A DNA stretch of 22,877 nucleotides, from the IMG/VR virus record IMGVR_UViG_3300015374_000069, positions 1 through 22,877 of that record; one strand, written 5' to 3'. Below are positions 4,540-22,877 of the stretch, piece after piece. The stretch is from a virus. The translations under genes and the position numbers were made by a program. Numbering within the stretch: the first letter of the stretch is position 1; each line of letters starts with the position of its first letter. Below the pieces are notes generated by a model. The model was not told the origin of the DNA. It saw only the letters and a list, made by a program, of their open reading frames with translations, and did not search any database.

Positions 4540-5155
4540 TCCTCACTCCTTTCACTGTTACGAGCGGTATGGGCCGCTCCTCCCTTTCTACGACCTGTAG
4601 AGACTCAGCGAATAACTCTGGCACCGAAAACACTGTCCATTGGTCGGCATCGTGCCGAAGGCGGCGGTACTCATTGAGCAGAGATTCGCGTTCTTCTCTA
4701 CGCCGGACGAGAAACTTGTGATGCTCAATAGCGACAGGTGCTTGCTCGCCTGAGCCGTAAGGCGATCCGTCGTGAACCCTGTGTCGTCCCCCGGATTTTG
4801 CCTTGATCGACAGCCGCGTTTGCAGGTCTGGGTACAGCGGTGGCGTTGGAATGTAGTGGTGCGTATCGCCCCAGAGGTGTAGTCGGGGGAAGCACCAATG
4901 GTCTGCGGCTTCATAGGAGCAATCCCTGAGCCATTCGACCATTTCCGGCGACGGCAATTCATCGTCATCCAGGCGCAGGATGTAACCGTCAGCGCACTCA
5001 GCCACCGCTTCGTCCAACGCATCTTCGATGGTCCGAATGTGCGAACCGTCGTACTCGACCATTTCGCCGTCGAGTAGATCGGCCAGATCATCGAACGCTT
5101 GCAGGAAGCGGCCAGCGTGCGGTGCGTAGCGCGTGACGCAGAGTATGGTGAGCAT
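4532..5155 (-). CDS. Glycosyltransferase, GT-A fold (family 2-like)
   Basis: 207 residues. The start is ATG 5155, which overlaps the previous stop (TGATG); a longer open frame upstream only shadows the preceding gene. The N-terminus MLTILCVTRYAPHAGRFLQA is the typical nucleotide-binding beginning of GT-A enzymes. The metal-binding acidic motif is RLDDDE (Asp63-65), placed as in family 2 sugar transferases. Further on, FPRLHLWGD and EHHKFLVRRREERESLLNEY match the acceptor-side region of small glycosyltransferases of this kind. No membrane segment is seen, so it is probably cytosolic and uses a nucleotide-sugar donor. It is the third of three coupled glycosyltransferase genes and is followed by the major tail protein gene. 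Donor and acceptor are unknown; virion proteins are the best candidates by context. Confidence 0.78.
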   Translation of the reverse strand: MLTILCVTRYAPHAGRFLQAFDDLADLLDGEMVEYDGSHIRTIEDALDEAVAECADGYILRLDDDELPSPEMVEWLRDCSYEAADHWCFPRLHLWGDTHHYIPTPPLYPDLQTRLSIKAKSGGRHRVHDGSPYGSGEQAPVAIEHHKFLVRRREERESLLNEYRRLRHDADQWTVFSVPELFAESLQVVEREERPIPLVTVKGVRNG

Positions 5156-5829
5156 CAGTCCGGCACCGCCAACATCAGCGGGTAGGCCATCACTTCGACC
5201 TGAGCCTCGTGGACGGGAAGATGCGGCTCGTCTTGCAGTAGCTCTGAGCGGTCGATATGCGCGAGGTCGTAGGAGTACGTCAGACCTTGCGGCCTCATGT
5301 TGTGCATGATCGGGTAGGCGTCGATCACCCCGAGCTTCAGATGCTCCTCTTTCAAGCGGTACGGCCAGATCAGGTCCAGCCCCCATCCCTGCTCCGCGCC
5401 CTTGTCGAACGGGAAGATGTGTGGGTAGGCAACGCGGGCGACCGAGAACAGCGGCCCGATCTCCACGAACCGCGTCTCGCGGCCGAGCAAATCGTCGTGG
5501 CGACTGTTGATCGGGTAGGTGTGGATGCTGCCCGGAAGGTGCGCGGGTTGAGCAAGCGCGAAGCCGAGCTGCTTCTGCACGGCGATGTACGAGTCGAGCC
5601 AGCCTTCCGCGAGGTTCGTGTCGTCGTCGGTGACGACCACGAAGTCGAATTTCTCCACGTCTTTGAGCAGGCGGTTCAAGGCCGGGTACTTCGGCTCTTT
5701 CGTCGCCTCGGTCATTTCCATCCAACGCTGTTCGACCTCATGCTCCTGGCTCGCGCCGAACACCCCGGCTAGATGCTCCTGCGTGTTCGGGATGTCGCTC
5801 AGGTAGATGCCGACGATGAGAATGTTCAT
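5155..5829 (-). CDS. Putative glycosyltransferase with DDD motif
   Basis: 224 residues from ATG 5829, which overlaps the previous gene by 4 bp (ATGA). The N-terminus MNILIVGIYLSDIPNTQEHL is an alternating hydrophobic strand as in sugar transferases. The central FDFVVVTDDDTNLAEGWLDS (DDD at residues 68-70) resembles the metal-binding motif of GT-A enzymes. Downstream segments include HIFPFDKGAEQGWGLDLIWP, reminiscent of the acceptor region in families such as DUF707, where a WGLD-type motif is common. No membrane segments. Tightly coupled to a GT4 enzyme upstream and a GT2-like enzyme downstream. The activity class is likely but the family is uncertain, and substrate cannot be read from sequence. 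Confidence 0.65.
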   Translation of the reverse strand: MNILIVGIYLSDIPNTQEHLAGVFGASQEHEVEQRWMEMTEATKEPKYPALNRLLKDVEKFDFVVVTDDDTNLAEGWLDSYIAVQKQLGFALAQPAHLPGSIHTYPINSRHDDLLGRETRFVEIGPLFSVARVAYPHIFPFDKGAEQGWGLDLIWPYRLKEEHLKLGVIDAYPIMHNMRPQGLTYSYDLAHIDRSELLQDEPHLPVHEAQVEVMAYPLMLAVPD

Positions 5830-7019
5830 GCCGTGACCTTCGCTGTCTTGCGCTCACGGGCACGGCGGACCTGTCGTGATTCGGCCGGGACTAGCTGCTC
5901 CAGGGCGGGCAGCCAATATTCGATCAGCACCTTGTCGGCGTCGTACTGCGACGCGAACTCGACGCATTTGTCGCTGCGCTCCTGGTCGCCTCGTGCTTCG
6001 TAGGCGGCTTCCAGGGCCGCGATGATCGACGGCACGAAGGGCATGAAGAACCAGGACACCCCGGCGTTGTCCCAGAAGGGCTGTCCGTCCACGAGCCAGC
6101 CGGGGCCAGCCAGCTCACTCATGGCCGAGTGGTCAGACGTGATGACGGGAACGCCGCACGCCTGCGCCTCGACAATCGGGATGCCGAAGCCCTCGCCCAT
6201 CGACGGCTGAAGCAGCACGTCGAACGCCTGGTAGATCGACGCCAACGTCGAGGCGGGCATCCCGAGGTGCCAGATCGCATCCTCGGGGAAGCGCACGCGG
6301 CCCTCCGGCGTGTCGCAGGCGGTAGCGATCAGGTCAAGGTTCATCCCGACGTGCGTGTTCGCCTCGGTGTGCGCGTAGAGGTAGGCGTCGTCATGGCGCT
6401 TGGCGAACGCCGCGAACGCCTGTAGCGCCTCCGGGTACGCCTTGCGGTGGACGACCTGACCGCGATTCGCGGCGACCATTCCGACCAGGAAGGCGTCCTG
6501 GTCGATGCCCAATTCCTTCCGCACCGCTGCCTTGATCTCCGGCCTCGGCTTGAACAGCTCCGTATCGACGCCGTGCGGCACGTAGAGCGGCTTCAGCTTG
6601 AAAACCTCCATCCACTCCTGCCCGAAGCGGCTCATGGCGATGGGCTGGATGCGCTTGTCCTGTAGGACGTGCAGGATCGGCGGCGGGATCGGGTAATGGT
6701 CGAGCGGTGCCCATAGGCCCATCGGAGCGCCGATGTCGTCCTGCCACTCGTCCACCTTGAAAACGTGAGCGTCGGCCAGCGAGATCACTAGGTCGGCGTT
6801 GAAGTCCTTGATGTACGTCGGCAGCGCCTTGTTGCCCCAGGAGCCGTCGGCCGGGTAGGTCGTGATCCCCTGGATTTCCCACCGCGCCTCTTGGATGCCG
6901 AAGTTGCACATCATGGCAACGTCGTGGCCGAGTGCCTGAAGGCGGCGCAGAAATAGGTTCGTCTGCTCGCCGTAGCCGGAGGGTGCCCAAAATGCGTTGG
7001 AGAGCCACAGGATTCTCAC
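5826..7019 (-). CDS. Glycosyltransferase family 4 (GT-B fold)
   Basis: 397 residues, starting at GTG 7019, which overlaps the stop of the preceding gene by 4 bp (GTGA) and places the conserved first strand RILWLSNAFWAPSGYGEQ at the N-terminus. A longer frame upstream exists but covers the neighbour. GT-B signs: the Gly-rich SGYGEQ loop near residue 15, PLYVPHGVDTELFKP at about residues 144-158 (the interdomain linker typical of GT4), GMVAANRGQVVHRK at about 180-193, and EGFGIPIVEAQACGVPVITS with Glu276 and Glu284 forming the EX7E donor-binding motif. Length is normal for the family. It opens a three-gene glycosyltransferase cassette between neck and tail-tube genes. It should transfer a sugar from a nucleotide donor with retention of configuration; acceptor unknown. 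Confidence 0.9.
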   Translation of the reverse strand: MRILWLSNAFWAPSGYGEQTNLFLRRLQALGHDVAMMCNFGIQEARWEIQGITTYPADGSWGNKALPTYIKDFNADLVISLADAHVFKVDEWQDDIGAPMGLWAPLDHYPIPPPILHVLQDKRIQPIAMSRFGQEWMEVFKLKPLYVPHGVDTELFKPRPEIKAAVRKELGIDQDAFLVGMVAANRGQVVHRKAYPEALQAFAAFAKRHDDAYLYAHTEANTHVGMNLDLIATACDTPEGRVRFPEDAIWHLGMPASTLASIYQAFDVLLQPSMGEGFGIPIVEAQACGVPVITSDHSAMSELAGPGWLVDGQPFWDNAGVSWFFMPFVPSIIAALEAAYEARGDQERSDKCVEFASQYDADKVLIEYWLPALEQLVPAESRQVRRARERKTAKVTA

Positions 7020-7435
7020 GGCTGCACCGTCAGTAGCCATGTGCATCCCAGGAGGGCCGATCCGCCCGGATCGGTGAAGAACCCCCACTCGCTAGGTGGG
7101 CCGCAATACGAGTTCTGAACCGTGTTGCCGATCTGCTGGTCGGCGAACAGCGCCGTTCGCACGGCGGTATCTGATCCGGGGTCCATGAGACTGAGCAAGA
7201 GTTCCTGCGCTCCTTCGCGGTCGGGGGTATTGACGCGGGCGCGGATGACGAAGCTGAGTTCGCTCACCTGCCCGTAGGCGATGTCGGCGAAGAACGGATC
7301 GGCGGGGTACATATCAATCGCAGGCGGGGTCGGATTCCACATCATCGACGGCTCGACCTGAAGGTCCTCAATGTCCGAGAGCGCGTCGAGGAGAAGGTCA
7401 GCGATGGCCCGCATGATCGTTGGGGCGTCGCTCAT
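7016..7435 (-). CDS. Neck / tail terminator-like protein
   Basis: 139 residues from ATG 7435, which overlaps the previous stop by 4 bp (ATGA). The N-terminus is an amphipathic helix (MSDAPTIMRAIADLLLDAL), followed by beta-strands (QVSELSFVIRARVNT) and a helix with EGAQELLLSLMDPGSD. This layout is common in small siphophage proteins that terminate the tail tube or sit in the neck, and the gene order portal-protease-capsid-connector-this protein-tail tube fits. I do not see a diagnostic motif, so the label rests on fold-like pattern and position. Confidence 0.55.
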   Translation of the reverse strand: MSDAPTIMRAIADLLLDALSDIEDLQVEPSMMWNPTPPAIDMYPADPFFADIAYGQVSELSFVIRARVNTPDREGAQELLLSLMDPGSDTAVRTALFADQQIGNTVQNSYCGPPSEWGFFTDPGGSALLGCTWLLTVQP

Positions 7436-8061
7436 GCGATCCCCCATTCCATCTTCAGCGGAGCCAGCTTTACGGCATGGCGCTCCCAGGAATTGCTCGT
7501 GGCGAAGGCGGGTGATTCAACGCCGCCAGCACCGATCAGACCGAACGGTGACTGCGCCTGCTGCCAATGCTCCACGGCGCGTTCCAGACAGACTTCGACT
7601 GCGAGCGCAGGCGGATTGGCGTAGGGGGCGTCGGAGTTGCCGACCTCATGGTCGATTTCCCGTGACGCTGCGATCAGGACGCGCTCCAAGGCCGCATGAC
7701 GAGCCGTGGCATCGACCTTCACCAGCCGAGCCAACTCATCGACGCTGGCGTAGGGCGCGGTGAGGAATTCGCTGTTCTGCGCCGGGATGGACGGAAGGCT
7801 GACGTTGCTGCTGCCGTCGGCGAAGATGACGCGATACCAAAGGTCGGCCGTGCTGCTGGCAAGCGACGTGGTGAAGCTCCTGCTCTGAGGGTCGGCCGGG
7901 TCCACATCCGTCGGCGAGAGCGCGATCACGTCGATCTGCGTCCAGATCGTGTCGTCGGAGAGCGTGTCGGTGTCGCTCTCCTCAATCCGTACCTCGCTCC
8001 AGGGGATCGAATCGAAGCGAGCCGGAGGCGTGTAGTCCTCAAAGGAAATGATCTGCGTCAT
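7432..8061 (-). CDS. Head-tail connector (gp6-like adaptor) with N-terminal beta domain
   Basis: 209 residues from ATG 8061, with GGGAGGA five bases upstream. The N-terminal half (residues 1-95) looks like a beta-sandwich of fibronectin type III kind (WYRVIFADGSSNVSLPSIPA). The C-terminal half begins PYASVDELARLVKVDATARH and continues with helices LERVLIAASREIDHEVG and LAVEVCLERAVEHWQQAQSP, a pattern typical of gp6-like head-tail connectors (stretches of helix beginning with a YASVDEL-type motif). These dock under the portal ring in the neck. Starts 4 bp inside the end of the repeat protein gene and ends in a 4-bp overlap with the next neck gene. The added beta domain is a variation on shorter family members. 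Confidence 0.72.
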   Translation of the reverse strand: MTQIISFEDYTPPARFDSIPWSEVRIEESDTDTLSDDTIWTQIDVIALSPTDVDPADPQSRSFTTSLASSTADLWYRVIFADGSSNVSLPSIPAQNSEFLTAPYASVDELARLVKVDATARHAALERVLIAASREIDHEVGNSDAPYANPPALAVEVCLERAVEHWQQAQSPFGLIGAGGVESPAFATSNSWERHAVKLAPLKMEWGIA

Positions 8062-9941
8062 GTGATCCTCCCGCCGACAGGCACCGCTACGCGCCCCGAC
8101 TTCCCGAGTTCAAGTCCGAGCGGCGGTTGCTCGCCGAAGTCGATGGTTCCGCTGTCCCATTCCCCGCCGATCACCGTGGCGGCCCATTGGGAATTGATGT
8201 GGAAGATCAAATTCATTGCGCTGTCGCCGTACACCAACACCACGCCGTCGGTGACACCGATGTAGTTGAGCGCCATCGACGCGGAGGCAAATGTCTCGCG
8301 TGTCGAGGTGGATGCCGGGGTGAACAGGAACCCGGCAATCGGTGGCCCAAATGGTCCCATTCCGCCGAAGATGTAGCGGTGGGTGGCTGTCACGCCGAAT
8401 GTCGTGCGCGTGCCACTCGTGCTGGCACCGAAATGCAGGCCAAATGCTGACGAACCGAACGCGCCCGAGGCGGTTGTGAGAATCTGGAACAGCAGCGCTG
8501 TGGTGGTCGAGTCGAAGGTGGTGCGTACACCCGTACTCGTTACGGCAAACACCTCGCCCATCGCGCTCACGCCGAACGTGCTGCGGATCGCGGATGTCGT
8601 AAGGCCGAGATTCAACGCTGTGCTGGTGGAGGCGAATGTATTTCTCCTGCCGCTGGAGGTGGCGCTGAAGTTCAGCCCCGTACTTGTCGTGGCGAACGTC
8701 GAGCGGCTGCCCGAGGTCGTGATGCCGACCGAGAGTGCCATGCTCGCCGAGCCGAAATAGGTCTGGAAGCCACCTGTTACGAATCCGTCCGTCGAGACGG
8801 AGTAGTTGAGGGACGTGCTGGAGGCTCCCAACCTCGTGCGCGTCCCCGCCGTAGTGATGCTGACCGTTTCCGTCGTCGTGGTCGCCCCGAACGTCGTGCG
8901 TACCCCCGAGGTCGTGAAGGTGTCGGTGAGCGCTGTCGCTGTCACGCCGAAGGTCTTTTTGAAGCCCGACGTGACGACGCTGAACGTCTCAGCCATGACC
9001 GAGGCTGCGAAGGCACCGAGCCTGCCGACGGTGGTGAAGGTGTCCGTCAGGGCAGTCGTCGTAGCTGCGAACGTCTTTCGCACGCCCGACGTGGTGATCG
9101 TGTCGGTGAGGGCCGTGCTTGTCACGCCGAACGTCTTTCGCACGCCGGAGGTTGTGATCCCGTCCGACAGCGAGGTAGTCGTGGTGCCGAAGGTCTTGCG
9201 AACGCCTGACGTTGTGATCGTGTCCGTAAGCGCGGTCGTCGTTGCTCCGGTCTGCATCGTGGACTTGAAGCCGACCGAGCAGGTGAGCGCACGAGCAGAG
9301 GTCGTCGCCGACCAAGTGACCGTCGCCGTGCCCGACGATCCCGCAGAGCTGGAGCCTGTCTTGAACAGGTCGGACACCTCAACGACGTGCCCGGTGCCCG
9401 TCGTCGTTTGGTTGTCGTAGCGCTCGGTGAACGTGGCAACGGTCGAGGTCTGCCCTGACGACTCCAGAATCTTCACGGCGATGCCGACCACGAGCGAGTT
9501 GTTCGTGCCTGTGGTGAACGCCGGGATGACGGAGGTGGTCGTCTGCGCCGAGAGATCAGACGAGGCAACCGTGCCATCCAGCGTTGTAGTCGTGCCTGTC
9601 CAGGCGAGAATCTGTGCGCCGGACGAGTCACCGCTCGTGCCTGTGGTCAGCCCCGTCCAGGTGATCGTCGGGCTGTCCGTCGCGGTGCCATCAGCAATCC
9701 GCGTGAACACATAGATTTTCCCGCCCGAGGCTGTGCCCGAGGCGACCGGGAAGCCTGTCGGCAGGCTCCAGCCGCTCGGCGTCGAGACAGTGGCGGAGTT
9801 CGATCTGCTCTCGGTAACGCAGAGCAAGAGGTCCCCAGACTGCCGTGAAGCCGGAGCCGTCGGTGTGAGGCTGGTCGGATTCGCAACATTGTTTGCCGTG
9901 AACGAGGACGTTCCGGCTGCACGGAAGGTGGGGTTTGCCAC
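8058..9941 (-). CDS. Thr/Ser-rich repeat fibre-like structural protein
   Basis: 627 residues if it starts at GTG 9941, which shares a base with the TAG of the preceding gene (TAGTG); no Shine-Dalgarno is seen, so coupling is likely. Upstream in-frame sequence only covers the neighbour. Residues 1-225 form a beta-rich domain (SGDLLLCVTESRSNS, then SGAQILAWTGTTTTLDG) like N-terminal domains of environmental phage tail proteins. Residues about 232-575 are some 16 copies of a 20-residue unit, typified by TALTDTITTSGVRKTFG, almost entirely Thr, Ser, Gly and hydrophobics. The C-terminus is a short non-repeated segment. The repeat probably builds a beta-helical or stacked beta fibre. Being placed between capsid and connector genes, it may be a head fibre or a tail fibre. 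High Thr/Ser content makes it a plausible glycosylation target. Confidence 0.8.
   Translation of the reverse strand: MANPTFRAAGTSSFTANNVANPTSLTPTAPASRQSGDLLLCVTESRSNSATVSTPSGWSLPTGFPVASGTASGGKIYVFTRIADGTATDSPTITWTGLTTGTSGDSSGAQILAWTGTTTTLDGTVASSDLSAQTTTSVIPAFTTGTNNSLVVGIAVKILESSGQTSTVATFTERYDNQTTTGTGHVVEVSDLFKTGSSSAGSSGTATVTWSATTSARALTCSVGFKSTMQTGATTTALTDTITTSGVRKTFGTTTTSLSDGITTSGVRKTFGVTSTALTDTITTSGVRKTFAATTTALTDTFTTVGRLGAFAASVMAETFSVVTSGFKKTFGVTATALTDTFTTSGVRTTFGATTTTETVSITTAGTRTRLGASSTSLNYSVSTDGFVTGGFQTYFGSASMALSVGITTSGSRSTFATTSTGLNFSATSSGRRNTFASTSTALNLGLTTSAIRSTFGVSAMGEVFAVTSTGVRTTFDSTTTALLFQILTTASGAFGSSAFGLHFGASTSGTRTTFGVTATHRYIFGGMGPFGPPIAGFLFTPASTSTRETFASASMALNYIGVTDGVVLVYGDSAMNLIFHINSQWAATVIGGEWDSGTIDFGEQPPLGLELGKSGRVAVPVGGRIT
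8210..9250 (-). repeat. About 16 tandem 60-bp units encoding 20-residue repeats
   Basis: The unit encodes roughly G-x-T-x-T-A-L-x-x-x-I-T-T-S-G-V-R-x-T-F. The first four copies are close to identical in protein and similar in DNA; later copies diverge and two carry short insertions. Copies stay in frame throughout. The absence of plus-strand stops over this stretch creates long spurious plus-strand ORFs. Confidence 0.85.
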
Positions 9942-10333
9942 TAGGCGGCTGTGGGGGTGATGGCGACGGTCAGCGAGCCGGATGCGATGGTGAAGGTGTC
10001 GCCGACGGCGACCGTCTTGGAGGCTGCGAGATCGTCCGAGCCGAGGAACGTCCCTGCCGATGATGCGGTCCAGAACGAGACGTGCGAGTACGTCTCGGCC
10101 GTGCTTACGTTCGTCCAAACGAGATCAGCGTTGGTCGAGATCGAACCTCCCGAGGCTGTGCCGAAGGCCGCCTGCTGTCTCGTCGTATTGCCTGCGGCGG
10201 CCGTAGTGCCAGCAGAGCCGGGATCGGCCGTGTGCAGCTTGACCCAGAAGGCTGCATTGCCGCCGTAGGACGTGCCCTTGCAGTAGGCCGTAATCATCGA
10301 GTTAGCTTCGGTGTCCTTGATTCCAACTGCCAT
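9941..10333 (-). CDS. Small virion structural protein (common environmental phage family)
   Basis: 130 residues from ATG 10333 with GAGGAGGA upstream. The sequence begins MAVGIKDTEANSMITAYCKG and continues with AFWVKLHTADPGSAGT, then TWTNVSTAETYSHVSFWTAS-like beta segments and ends SLTVAITPTAA. I recognise this as a family seen often in siphophage genomes, usually annotated as a structural or tail-fibre-associated protein; the exact role is not known to me. It is the first gene after the capsid hairpin region and is directly coupled to the 627-residue repeat protein. A small beta protein followed by a large fibre protein also occurs at 20158-16643 in this window. Confidence 0.75.
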   Translation of the reverse strand: MAVGIKDTEANSMITAYCKGTSYGGNAAFWVKLHTADPGSAGTTAAAGNTTRQQAAFGTASGGSISTNADLVWTNVSTAETYSHVSFWTASSAGTFLGSDDLAASKTVAVGDTFTIASGSLTVAITPTAA

Positions 10334-20741: not shown

Positions 20742-20760
20742 GTGGCCTCACCTCCTGTTG

Positions 20761-20825
20761 AGGGCGAGGCCGAGCGGGGGTGCGCGACTTCGCCCTAAAG
20801 GGCTGGCAATCCGGTCATGCCGGAT
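20761..20825 (-). other. Two hairpins in the leader before the basic protein gene
   Basis: AGGGCGA (minus strand, 20790-20796) pairs with TCGCCCT (20761-20767) over 7 bp around a 22-nt loop, ending about 10 bases from the Shine-Dalgarno of the TTG-started gene. Further upstream ATCCGG (20820-20825) pairs with CCGGAT (20809-20814) around CATGA. Neither has a U-run. They may mask or expose the ribosome binding site or stabilise the 5' end of the late mRNA. Confidence 0.45.
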
Positions 20826-20881
20826 ATGCGCTCAGAGGTGAGGCGAGTCGTCTTGAACATCTACGTGAATGGAAGCATACC

Positions 20882-20912
20882 CAAAAACACAACCGCCCCC
20901 ACAAGGGGGGCG
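20882..20912 (-). terminator. Intrinsic terminator at the end of the candidate RNA
   Basis: On the minus strand CGCCCCC (20906-20912) pairs with GGGGGCG (20894-20900) around a 5-nt loop CTTGT, giving a 7-bp GC stem, followed by GGTTGTGTTTTTGG. The U-rich tail exists only on the minus strand, which fixes the direction. It separates the candidate RNA from the late operon about 140 bp further on. Confidence 0.75.
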
Positions 20913-21200
20913 ATTAGTGCGGGAGAGGGGATTGCCTACCCCCAAGACCTAGACCAATGGCTTTTCCATGAGGCCTGGTTCAGTCTGCCTGACTCTCGGC
21001 GGCTCGTAGCTCCGTCGCTAGATGGTGTCCACCTACCTGCCGTGGCCCGAGGTTTCCGGCGAGCGCTTGCTACACGCCTCCGGCCTACCCTTCACTCCTA
21101 GCTCGTCAGCACCTTCCCTACCTCGTACCCCTGGTCACAGGATACGTCGTCGGGTCAGTCACTCCCTGTCCGATTGAGGGGGCGACCCCCGACCGAACCG
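20882..21200 (-). ncRNA. Candidate structured noncoding RNA of about 320 nt, family not recognised
   Basis: The stretch between 20742 and 21285 holds no convincing protein gene. On the minus strand it has a promoter at its start, an intrinsic terminator at its end and many short helices between them. Pairings, in plus coordinates: 21178-21182 with 21186-21190; 21137-21141 with 21165-21169; 21044-21052 with 21077-21085 (8 bp and one mismatch); 21019-21025 with 21029-21035 (7 bp including one GU); 20993-20997 with 20923-20927. The last helix closes a multibranch region holding three hairpins, of which 20951-20955/20972-20976 with 20957-20960/20966-20969 and 20927-20930/20939-20942 are clear. 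The cloverleaf-like arm lacks a T-loop consensus, so it is not a normal tRNA. I find no signatures of RNase P, tmRNA or group I/II introns. Confidence 0.6.
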
Positions 21201-21230
21201 TTGCACCCTATAGAGCTGGCGTGGTAGAAG
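21201..21230 (+). promoter_or_regulatory. Possible promoter for the plus-strand gene set
   Basis: Plus-strand -35 TTGCAC (21201-21206), 18-nt spacer, -10 TAGAAG (21225-21230), about 55 bp before the ATG at 21286. It shares DNA with the oppositely oriented promoter of the candidate RNA, so polymerase binding to one would block the other. Confidence 0.4.
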
Positions 21231-21234
21231 TCAA
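21207..21234 (-). promoter_or_regulatory. Sigma70-like promoter of the candidate noncoding RNA
   Basis: Minus-strand -35 TTGACT (21229-21234), 16-nt spacer, -10 TATAGG (21207-21212). Five of six bases match at -35 and four of six at -10, in otherwise GC-rich DNA. Transcription should start near 21200. Confidence 0.55.
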
Positions 21235-21285
21235 GTCGCAACACCCCGTAACGCCCGTCACACCCGCAACAGGAAGGAGCAACGC

Positions 21286-22716: not shown

Positions 22717-22741
22717 ACCAAAAGCGAGAGGTAATTGTTCC

Positions 22742-22870
22742 GAGCCGCGCCAAGCTGCGCCTTACCGCACCGGGCCGAGCAACTGCGCTGCCATGCCCCG
22801 TTCAGGAATTAGCCTCGCCCTGCCTGCCGTGCCTCGCCGGGACCAGCCCCGCGTGGACCAGCCAAGCGCA
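22742..22870 (-). repeat. Second degenerate pentanucleotide array (NNGGC units)
   Basis: On the minus strand the sequence breaks into fives such as GGGGC, TGGTC, CCGGC, GAGGC, ACGGC, then after a 12-nt interruption GGGGC, ATGGC, later TCGGC, CCGGT, GCGGT, AAGGC, GCAGC, TTGGC, GCGGC. A few units have 4 or 6 bases. It occupies the right end of the window, where I see no gene. Confidence 0.65.
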
Positions 22871-22877
22871 AACCCGC

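Follow-up and report, generated by a model that had tools for sequence, protein, structure and literature searches.

The window, by which we mean the whole 22,877-nucleotide stretch of viral DNA analysed, carries late and structural genes on its minus strand (20741 to 3) and, on their upstream side, a gap without a credible protein gene (20742-21285). The earlier note on this DNA had pointed to about 540 bp of this kind, and the observation holds. Indeed, the sole open reading frame across the gap (20817-21101, plus strand, 94 aa) scores as non-coding, with -0.157 bits/codon versus about +0.19 to +0.49 in most neighbouring genes; it has no Shine-Dalgarno sequence, and comparison with PHROGs gave no match. 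Read along the minus strand, 20884-21234 opens with a promoter-like site; ~320 nt without a credible gene follow, and then an intrinsic terminator, which stands between the RNA and the late genes directly downstream of it:

21207..21234, minus strand: sigma-70-type promoter, TTGACT-16 nt-TATAGG, 9/12 to consensus, with a predicted transcription start at about 21202-21199
20884..21201, minus strand: predicted manA-type RNA transcript of ~320 nt, with promoter and terminator, no coding signal and a manA core
20884..20916, minus strand: intrinsic terminator, an 11-bp stem (20916-20890) followed by the T-run TGTTTTT

Both signals had been named in the earlier note and both were recovered. The two strands of the 22.9-kb window have only 7 sites of this quality between them, of which the promoter is one; a stricter default scan missed it because its -10 element does not end in T. 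The terminator is the sole strong one on the minus strand of the window; it begins 3′ of the core, and no bases are contested between the two. ARAGORN and an Rfam scan at gathering score found no tRNA, no tmRNA and no other Rfam family in the RNA region, in agreement with the view that it is neither tRNA nor tmRNA. Our results thus support a phage-encoded structured noncoding RNA gene of ~320 nt at 20884-21201 (minus strand), with its own promoter and terminator, much as first proposed.

The folding energy of this stretch is no better than that of dinucleotide shuffles (z -0.93; 14 of 100 shuffles were as stable), and the six helices of 4-8 bp originally listed are by themselves not above chance. 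Since energy does not separate the stretch from its shuffles, structure was judged by comparison. An unexceptional folding energy is what unconstrained intergenic DNA would give, and the gap might then hold no functional RNA; the joint occurrence of a manA core, a promoter and a terminator makes this the least probable of the explanations considered.

Relationship to manA RNA

A permissive Rfam search yielded a weak match to manA (RF01745) at 11.9 bits (E 1.4 over all families), below the gathering cut-off of 55.2 bits, and for this reason we describe the RNA as a distant relative and do not file it under RF01745. The match nevertheless aligned the best-conserved pieces of manA, namely GGGAGUGACUGA, AAGGUG and the terminal CUU-GGGGGUA...AAUCCCCU-CUCCC. 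On viral contigs, the pattern of the terminal piece retrieved genuine manA RNAs of cyanophage type and a GC-rich one (L012, 73.8 bits), together with a near-identical record of the window's phage; further manA relatives were taken from annotated cyanophages.

Covariance models were built with the window copy left out. The first (R1, 15 manA RNAs) found the copy of the window's phage in a search of 493 kb at 16.9 bits (E 0.004), and the second (R2, the R1 set plus six further relatives) found it in 499 kb at 17.3 bits (E 0.0018). With filters off, R1 gave a poor 7.7-bit alignment at this place that was not ranked first; in whole-record searches R2 had no match at the window copy and R3 reached 14.4 bits. 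The extra length of P2 and P3 probably explains why the scores depend on the setting. Bit score alone is not decisive, because an apparently coding locus preselected by pattern, L024, reached 18.5 bits; for the same reason the scores of L034, L045, L043 and L064 were not taken at face value, and L041, at 55.6 bits, was considered a safe manA relative.

The window copy matches 30 of the 31 positions in the invariant manA blocks GGGNGUGACUGAA and CUUGNGGGUA...AAUCCCNNCNCCC, while the best of 3000 dinucleotide shuffles reached 25/31 and the rest of the window 23/31; the choice of the two blocks followed the Rfam lead, yet no stretches of the family are more conserved, and the margin is large. Furthermore, the models that had left the window copy out align it with the closing helix, P2, P3, P4 and P5 in the manA order, and this alignment agrees with the one made by hand (AGGGAGUGACUGA, CCC...GGGAAGGUG, CUGAC...GUCAGGCAGACU...GGUCU, U, GGGGGUAGGCAAUCCCCU, CUCCC). 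The features of the core, all on the minus strand, are:

21168..21198: P1 hairpin; as in manA, its end lies 1-2 nt ahead of the closing helix
21162..21166: 5′ strand of the closing helix, GGGAG, which covaries in the family; UGACUGA follows at 21161-21155
21110..21154: P2, CCC (21154-21152) with GGG (21118-21116), then AAGGUG (21115-21110)
21125..21145: added inner hairpin of P2, GUAUCC (21145-21140) with GGGUAC (21130-21125)
20989..21109: P3 domain, CUGAC (21109-21105) with GUCAG (20993-20989); the interior, ~111 nt, is enlarged and lacks comparative support
20945..20986: P4, AGACU (20986-20982) with GGUCU (20949-20945)
20926..20943: P5 hairpin, GGGGG-UAGGCAAU-CCCCU, with the conserved UA...AAU loop
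20921..20925: 3′ strand of the closing helix, CUCCC

Low covariance-model scores and their dependence on search settings are what one would expect if the structured RNA had no relation to manA and its conserved blocks matched by coincidence or convergence. Such an origin would have to account for the block matches in the right order and spacing, for five matching helices and for a P3-P4 junction (CAGGCAGA) identical to that of some cyanophage manA RNAs, and we regard it as very improbable. The homology rests on blocks, order, helices, promoter and terminator taken together, and it is this combination that is decisive: the RNA is a distant, enlarged relative of manA (RF01745) and not wholly new. 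As a consequence, the description of the RNA as previously undescribed does not hold for its core, even though an Rfam scan at gathering score returns nothing and the permissive search was needed to see manA.

The likeness to RF01745 extends to the order and pairing of P1, the closing helix, P2, P3, P4 and P5, to the nucleotides UGACUGA, AAGGUG and UA...AAU, and to the promoter at the 5′ end. On the other hand, the window RNA differs in its enlarged P2 and P3, in having a strong terminator of its own and in lying below the Rfam threshold, and its core measures 247 nt versus about 142-205 nt in manA relatives. In manA, P3 contains three hairpins, with GGUGGU and ACCA loops; in the window copy the P3 interior is enlarged and not alignable to them.

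Across 21 sequences, changes on both sides were observed in 28 of the 31 core pairs, 98.8% of cells were paired, and the covariation score was 0.647 versus 0.07-0.15 in slid controls; because the sequences were fitted to the structure and the alignment includes the window copy as one row, these figures support the family core rather than the window copy. Close relatives found for the window copy itself are limited to near-identical records, and a direct DNA search of the phage collection returned nothing meaningful. The closing helix occurs in the family as GGGAG/CUCCC, GGGUG/CACCC and GGGCG/CGCCC. In the window RNA, CUCCC pairs with GGGAG ~240 nt upstream, and this homology-supported helix conflicts with the cloverleaf closed by GAGAG/CTCTC that had been drawn from the sequence. 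Forcing the manA core on the window RNA costs 5 kcal/mol above the minimum free energy of -140.4, which in our judgement falls inside the usual error of such predictions.

Several other readings of the matches were discarded. The helix drawn with square brackets in Rfam is not a pseudoknot but the nested closing helix. A weak Rfam match to asX2 was mainly to the terminator hairpin, and one to MIAT exon 1 had no structure (E 9). Descent from, or mimicry of, tmRNA was set aside, as the 28-nt similarity between the manA of P-SSM2 and cyanobacterial tmRNA is absent from other members. Scanning viral and genome contigs with patterns of the 3′ or 5′ block gave, besides known manA RNAs and a few divergent members, mostly chance or coding matches.

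In the manA alignment A2, the P3a loop GGUGGU is complementary to the P3c loop ACCA, and the two may kiss. Both loops are nearly invariant, which makes covariation uninformative on this point, and the second loop is missing in L012.

Genomic layout of manA RNAs

The known sources of manA are marine metagenomes, cyanophages and two gamma-proteobacteria, and Weinberg et al. (2010) proposed a cis-regulatory role because the RNA often lies in potential 5′ UTRs (PMC2864571). This label has been repeated in recent papers (PMC9964418, PMC12197685), and we did not find a family-wide case against it stated in the openly licensed literature searched.

We compiled 75 distinct manA RNAs, mostly closely related cyanophage copies and hence not 75 independent cases. 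In 71 of them a sigma-70-type promoter scoring at least 10/12 ends 19-45 nt before the closing helix (background at random positions, 2.9%), which would place the start of transcription at P1 or shortly ahead of it; the remaining four sit directly behind a tRNA. The window promoter has the same position relative to the core as in these 71 relatives. A tRNA follows within 60 nt in 13 of the 75, and a terminator within 130 nt in 12 (background 3%). In most cases a gene on the same strand lies downstream of the manA RNA, as expected of a leader. In nine annotated cyanophage genomes the RNA is present exactly once per genome (P-SSM2 and P-SSM7 have one manA gene each), and the neighbours vary among cyanophages, including tRNA-Gly, pstS, talC, gp23, purL and ferredoxin; in P-TIM68 a neighbouring gene is on the opposite strand. 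In L008 the order is tmRNA, tRNA, manA, tRNA, and a gap of 1 nt separates manA from the tRNA on either side.

With the leftward late genes directly downstream, the window copy could be a cis-acting leader, a riboswitch or attenuator whose fold decides between termination at 20916-20890 and readthrough into the structural genes. The proposal of Weinberg et al. would accommodate such a role, and a promoter at the 5′ end of the RNA also suits a leader. What speaks against it is that core and terminator follow one another without competing for bases, and that the relatives are single-copy in their genomes, have varied neighbours (an opposite-strand gene in P-TIM68) and occur in tRNA arrays and before tRNAs. 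We therefore consider a leader unlikely, if worth keeping in mind.

Processive antitermination RNAs such as HK022 put and EAR are found between the promoter and the terminators of a long operon. The window RNA resembles them in being a structured RNA in this very position, and a terminator sometimes directly follows its relatives, so that the nascent RNA might modify the polymerase, let it pass the terminator and have the long late operon transcribed. Unlike put and EAR, however, manA family members also occur inside tRNA arrays, and they stand before single tRNAs as well as before genes; the Rfam results hold no put- or EAR-like match and no relation to either. An antiterminator is in our view improbable. 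Since the late genes lie downstream, the leader and the antiterminator both keep some probability for the window copy.

Taken together, single copies, varied neighbours, tRNA arrays and terminators favour manA as an autonomous RNA gene, probably trans-acting, over the accepted cis-regulatory label; action in trans is suggested by the genome layout. The earlier note had compared the genomic setting with that of ROOL and GOLLD, and the comparison fits the manA family: ROOL and GOLLD are structured RNAs of phages, of unknown function and frequently close to tRNA islands (PMC12286853), a setting that manA relatives share. They are much larger than the window RNA and without sequence relation to it (their Rfam models gave no match to it even at E 10), and nanocage formation, in contrast to ROOL and GOLLD, is not known for manA.

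Divergent manA-like RNAs were also seen in other phage contigs (L041:10127-10331, L034:3891-4032, L045:11447-11601, L043:2233-2265 and L012:4670-4832). Most are below or near Rfam detection and several lie near tRNA genes, which suggests a family wider than RF01745. Two further observations concern the tRNA and tmRNA genes of these contigs. On the cyanophage-type contig L008 (4480-5119), the tmRNA at the head of the tight tRNA-manA-tRNA array is of the cyanobacterial (permuted) type, although the contig is classed as viral. On the phage contig of L034, ARAGORN reports a tRNA at L089:2655-2726 with a CTA anticodon (listed as Pyl), a possible UAG suppressor.

The phage and a possible role of the RNA

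The window's phage is unlike the usual carriers of manA. Its genome is GC-rich, its terminase shares ~40% identity with the terminases of Rhodococcus, Gordonia and Mycobacterium phages, and ARAGORN found no tRNA in the near-identical 54.5-kb record. Because the terminase is nearest to those of actinophages and the genome is GC-rich, the host is likely actinobacterial. A search of the ten actinophages with the nearest terminases recovered no copy of the RNA.

Other features of the window were recorded in passing. Its right end (22730-22877) and L087:1-300 both contain many GCC triplets spaced 5 to 6 nt apart (GCCNNGCC-like repeats), and the right end may join the L087:1-300 region of the 54.5-kb record. 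The protein encoded at 8058-10118 carries a tandem repeat of ~20 residues (TTALTDTITTSGVRKTFG-like), visible as DNA repeats in self-comparison (8300-9500, minus strand), and two proteins within the structural operon (4588-7088, minus strand) look glycosyltransferase-like by eye.

Returning to the RNA, we think it quite probable that an autonomous gene for a noncoding RNA lies here, distantly homologous to manA (RF01745) and enlarged relative to it. Host RNA polymerase would transcribe it from about 21200, the transcript would fold into the P1 hairpin and the closed multibranch core P2-P5, and it would end at about 20884 as a stable RNA of ~320 nt. Less certainly, this RNA may act in trans during infection, with the conserved unpaired UGACUGA, AAGGUG and UA...AAU nucleotides as a putative binding surface for a protein or the translation apparatus. 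Earlier suggestions that it controls the switch from early to late genes or enters the virion drew no supporting finding from this analysis.

For the family as a whole we lean, on balance, towards seeing manA not as a riboswitch family but as a broad class of phage RNA genes, autonomous, single-copy and acting in trans, placed at varying genome positions and in tRNA arrays, which would range from marine cyanophages to a GC-rich phage with an actinophage-like terminase and an enlarged P3, and would stand beside ROOL and GOLLD. With this finding, a structured RNA family hitherto known almost exclusively from marine sources reaches a very different phage, and part of this family lies below the detection limit of Rfam. 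Furthermore, the evidence from promoters, tRNA arrays and single copies argues against the cis-regulatory label that manA has carried.
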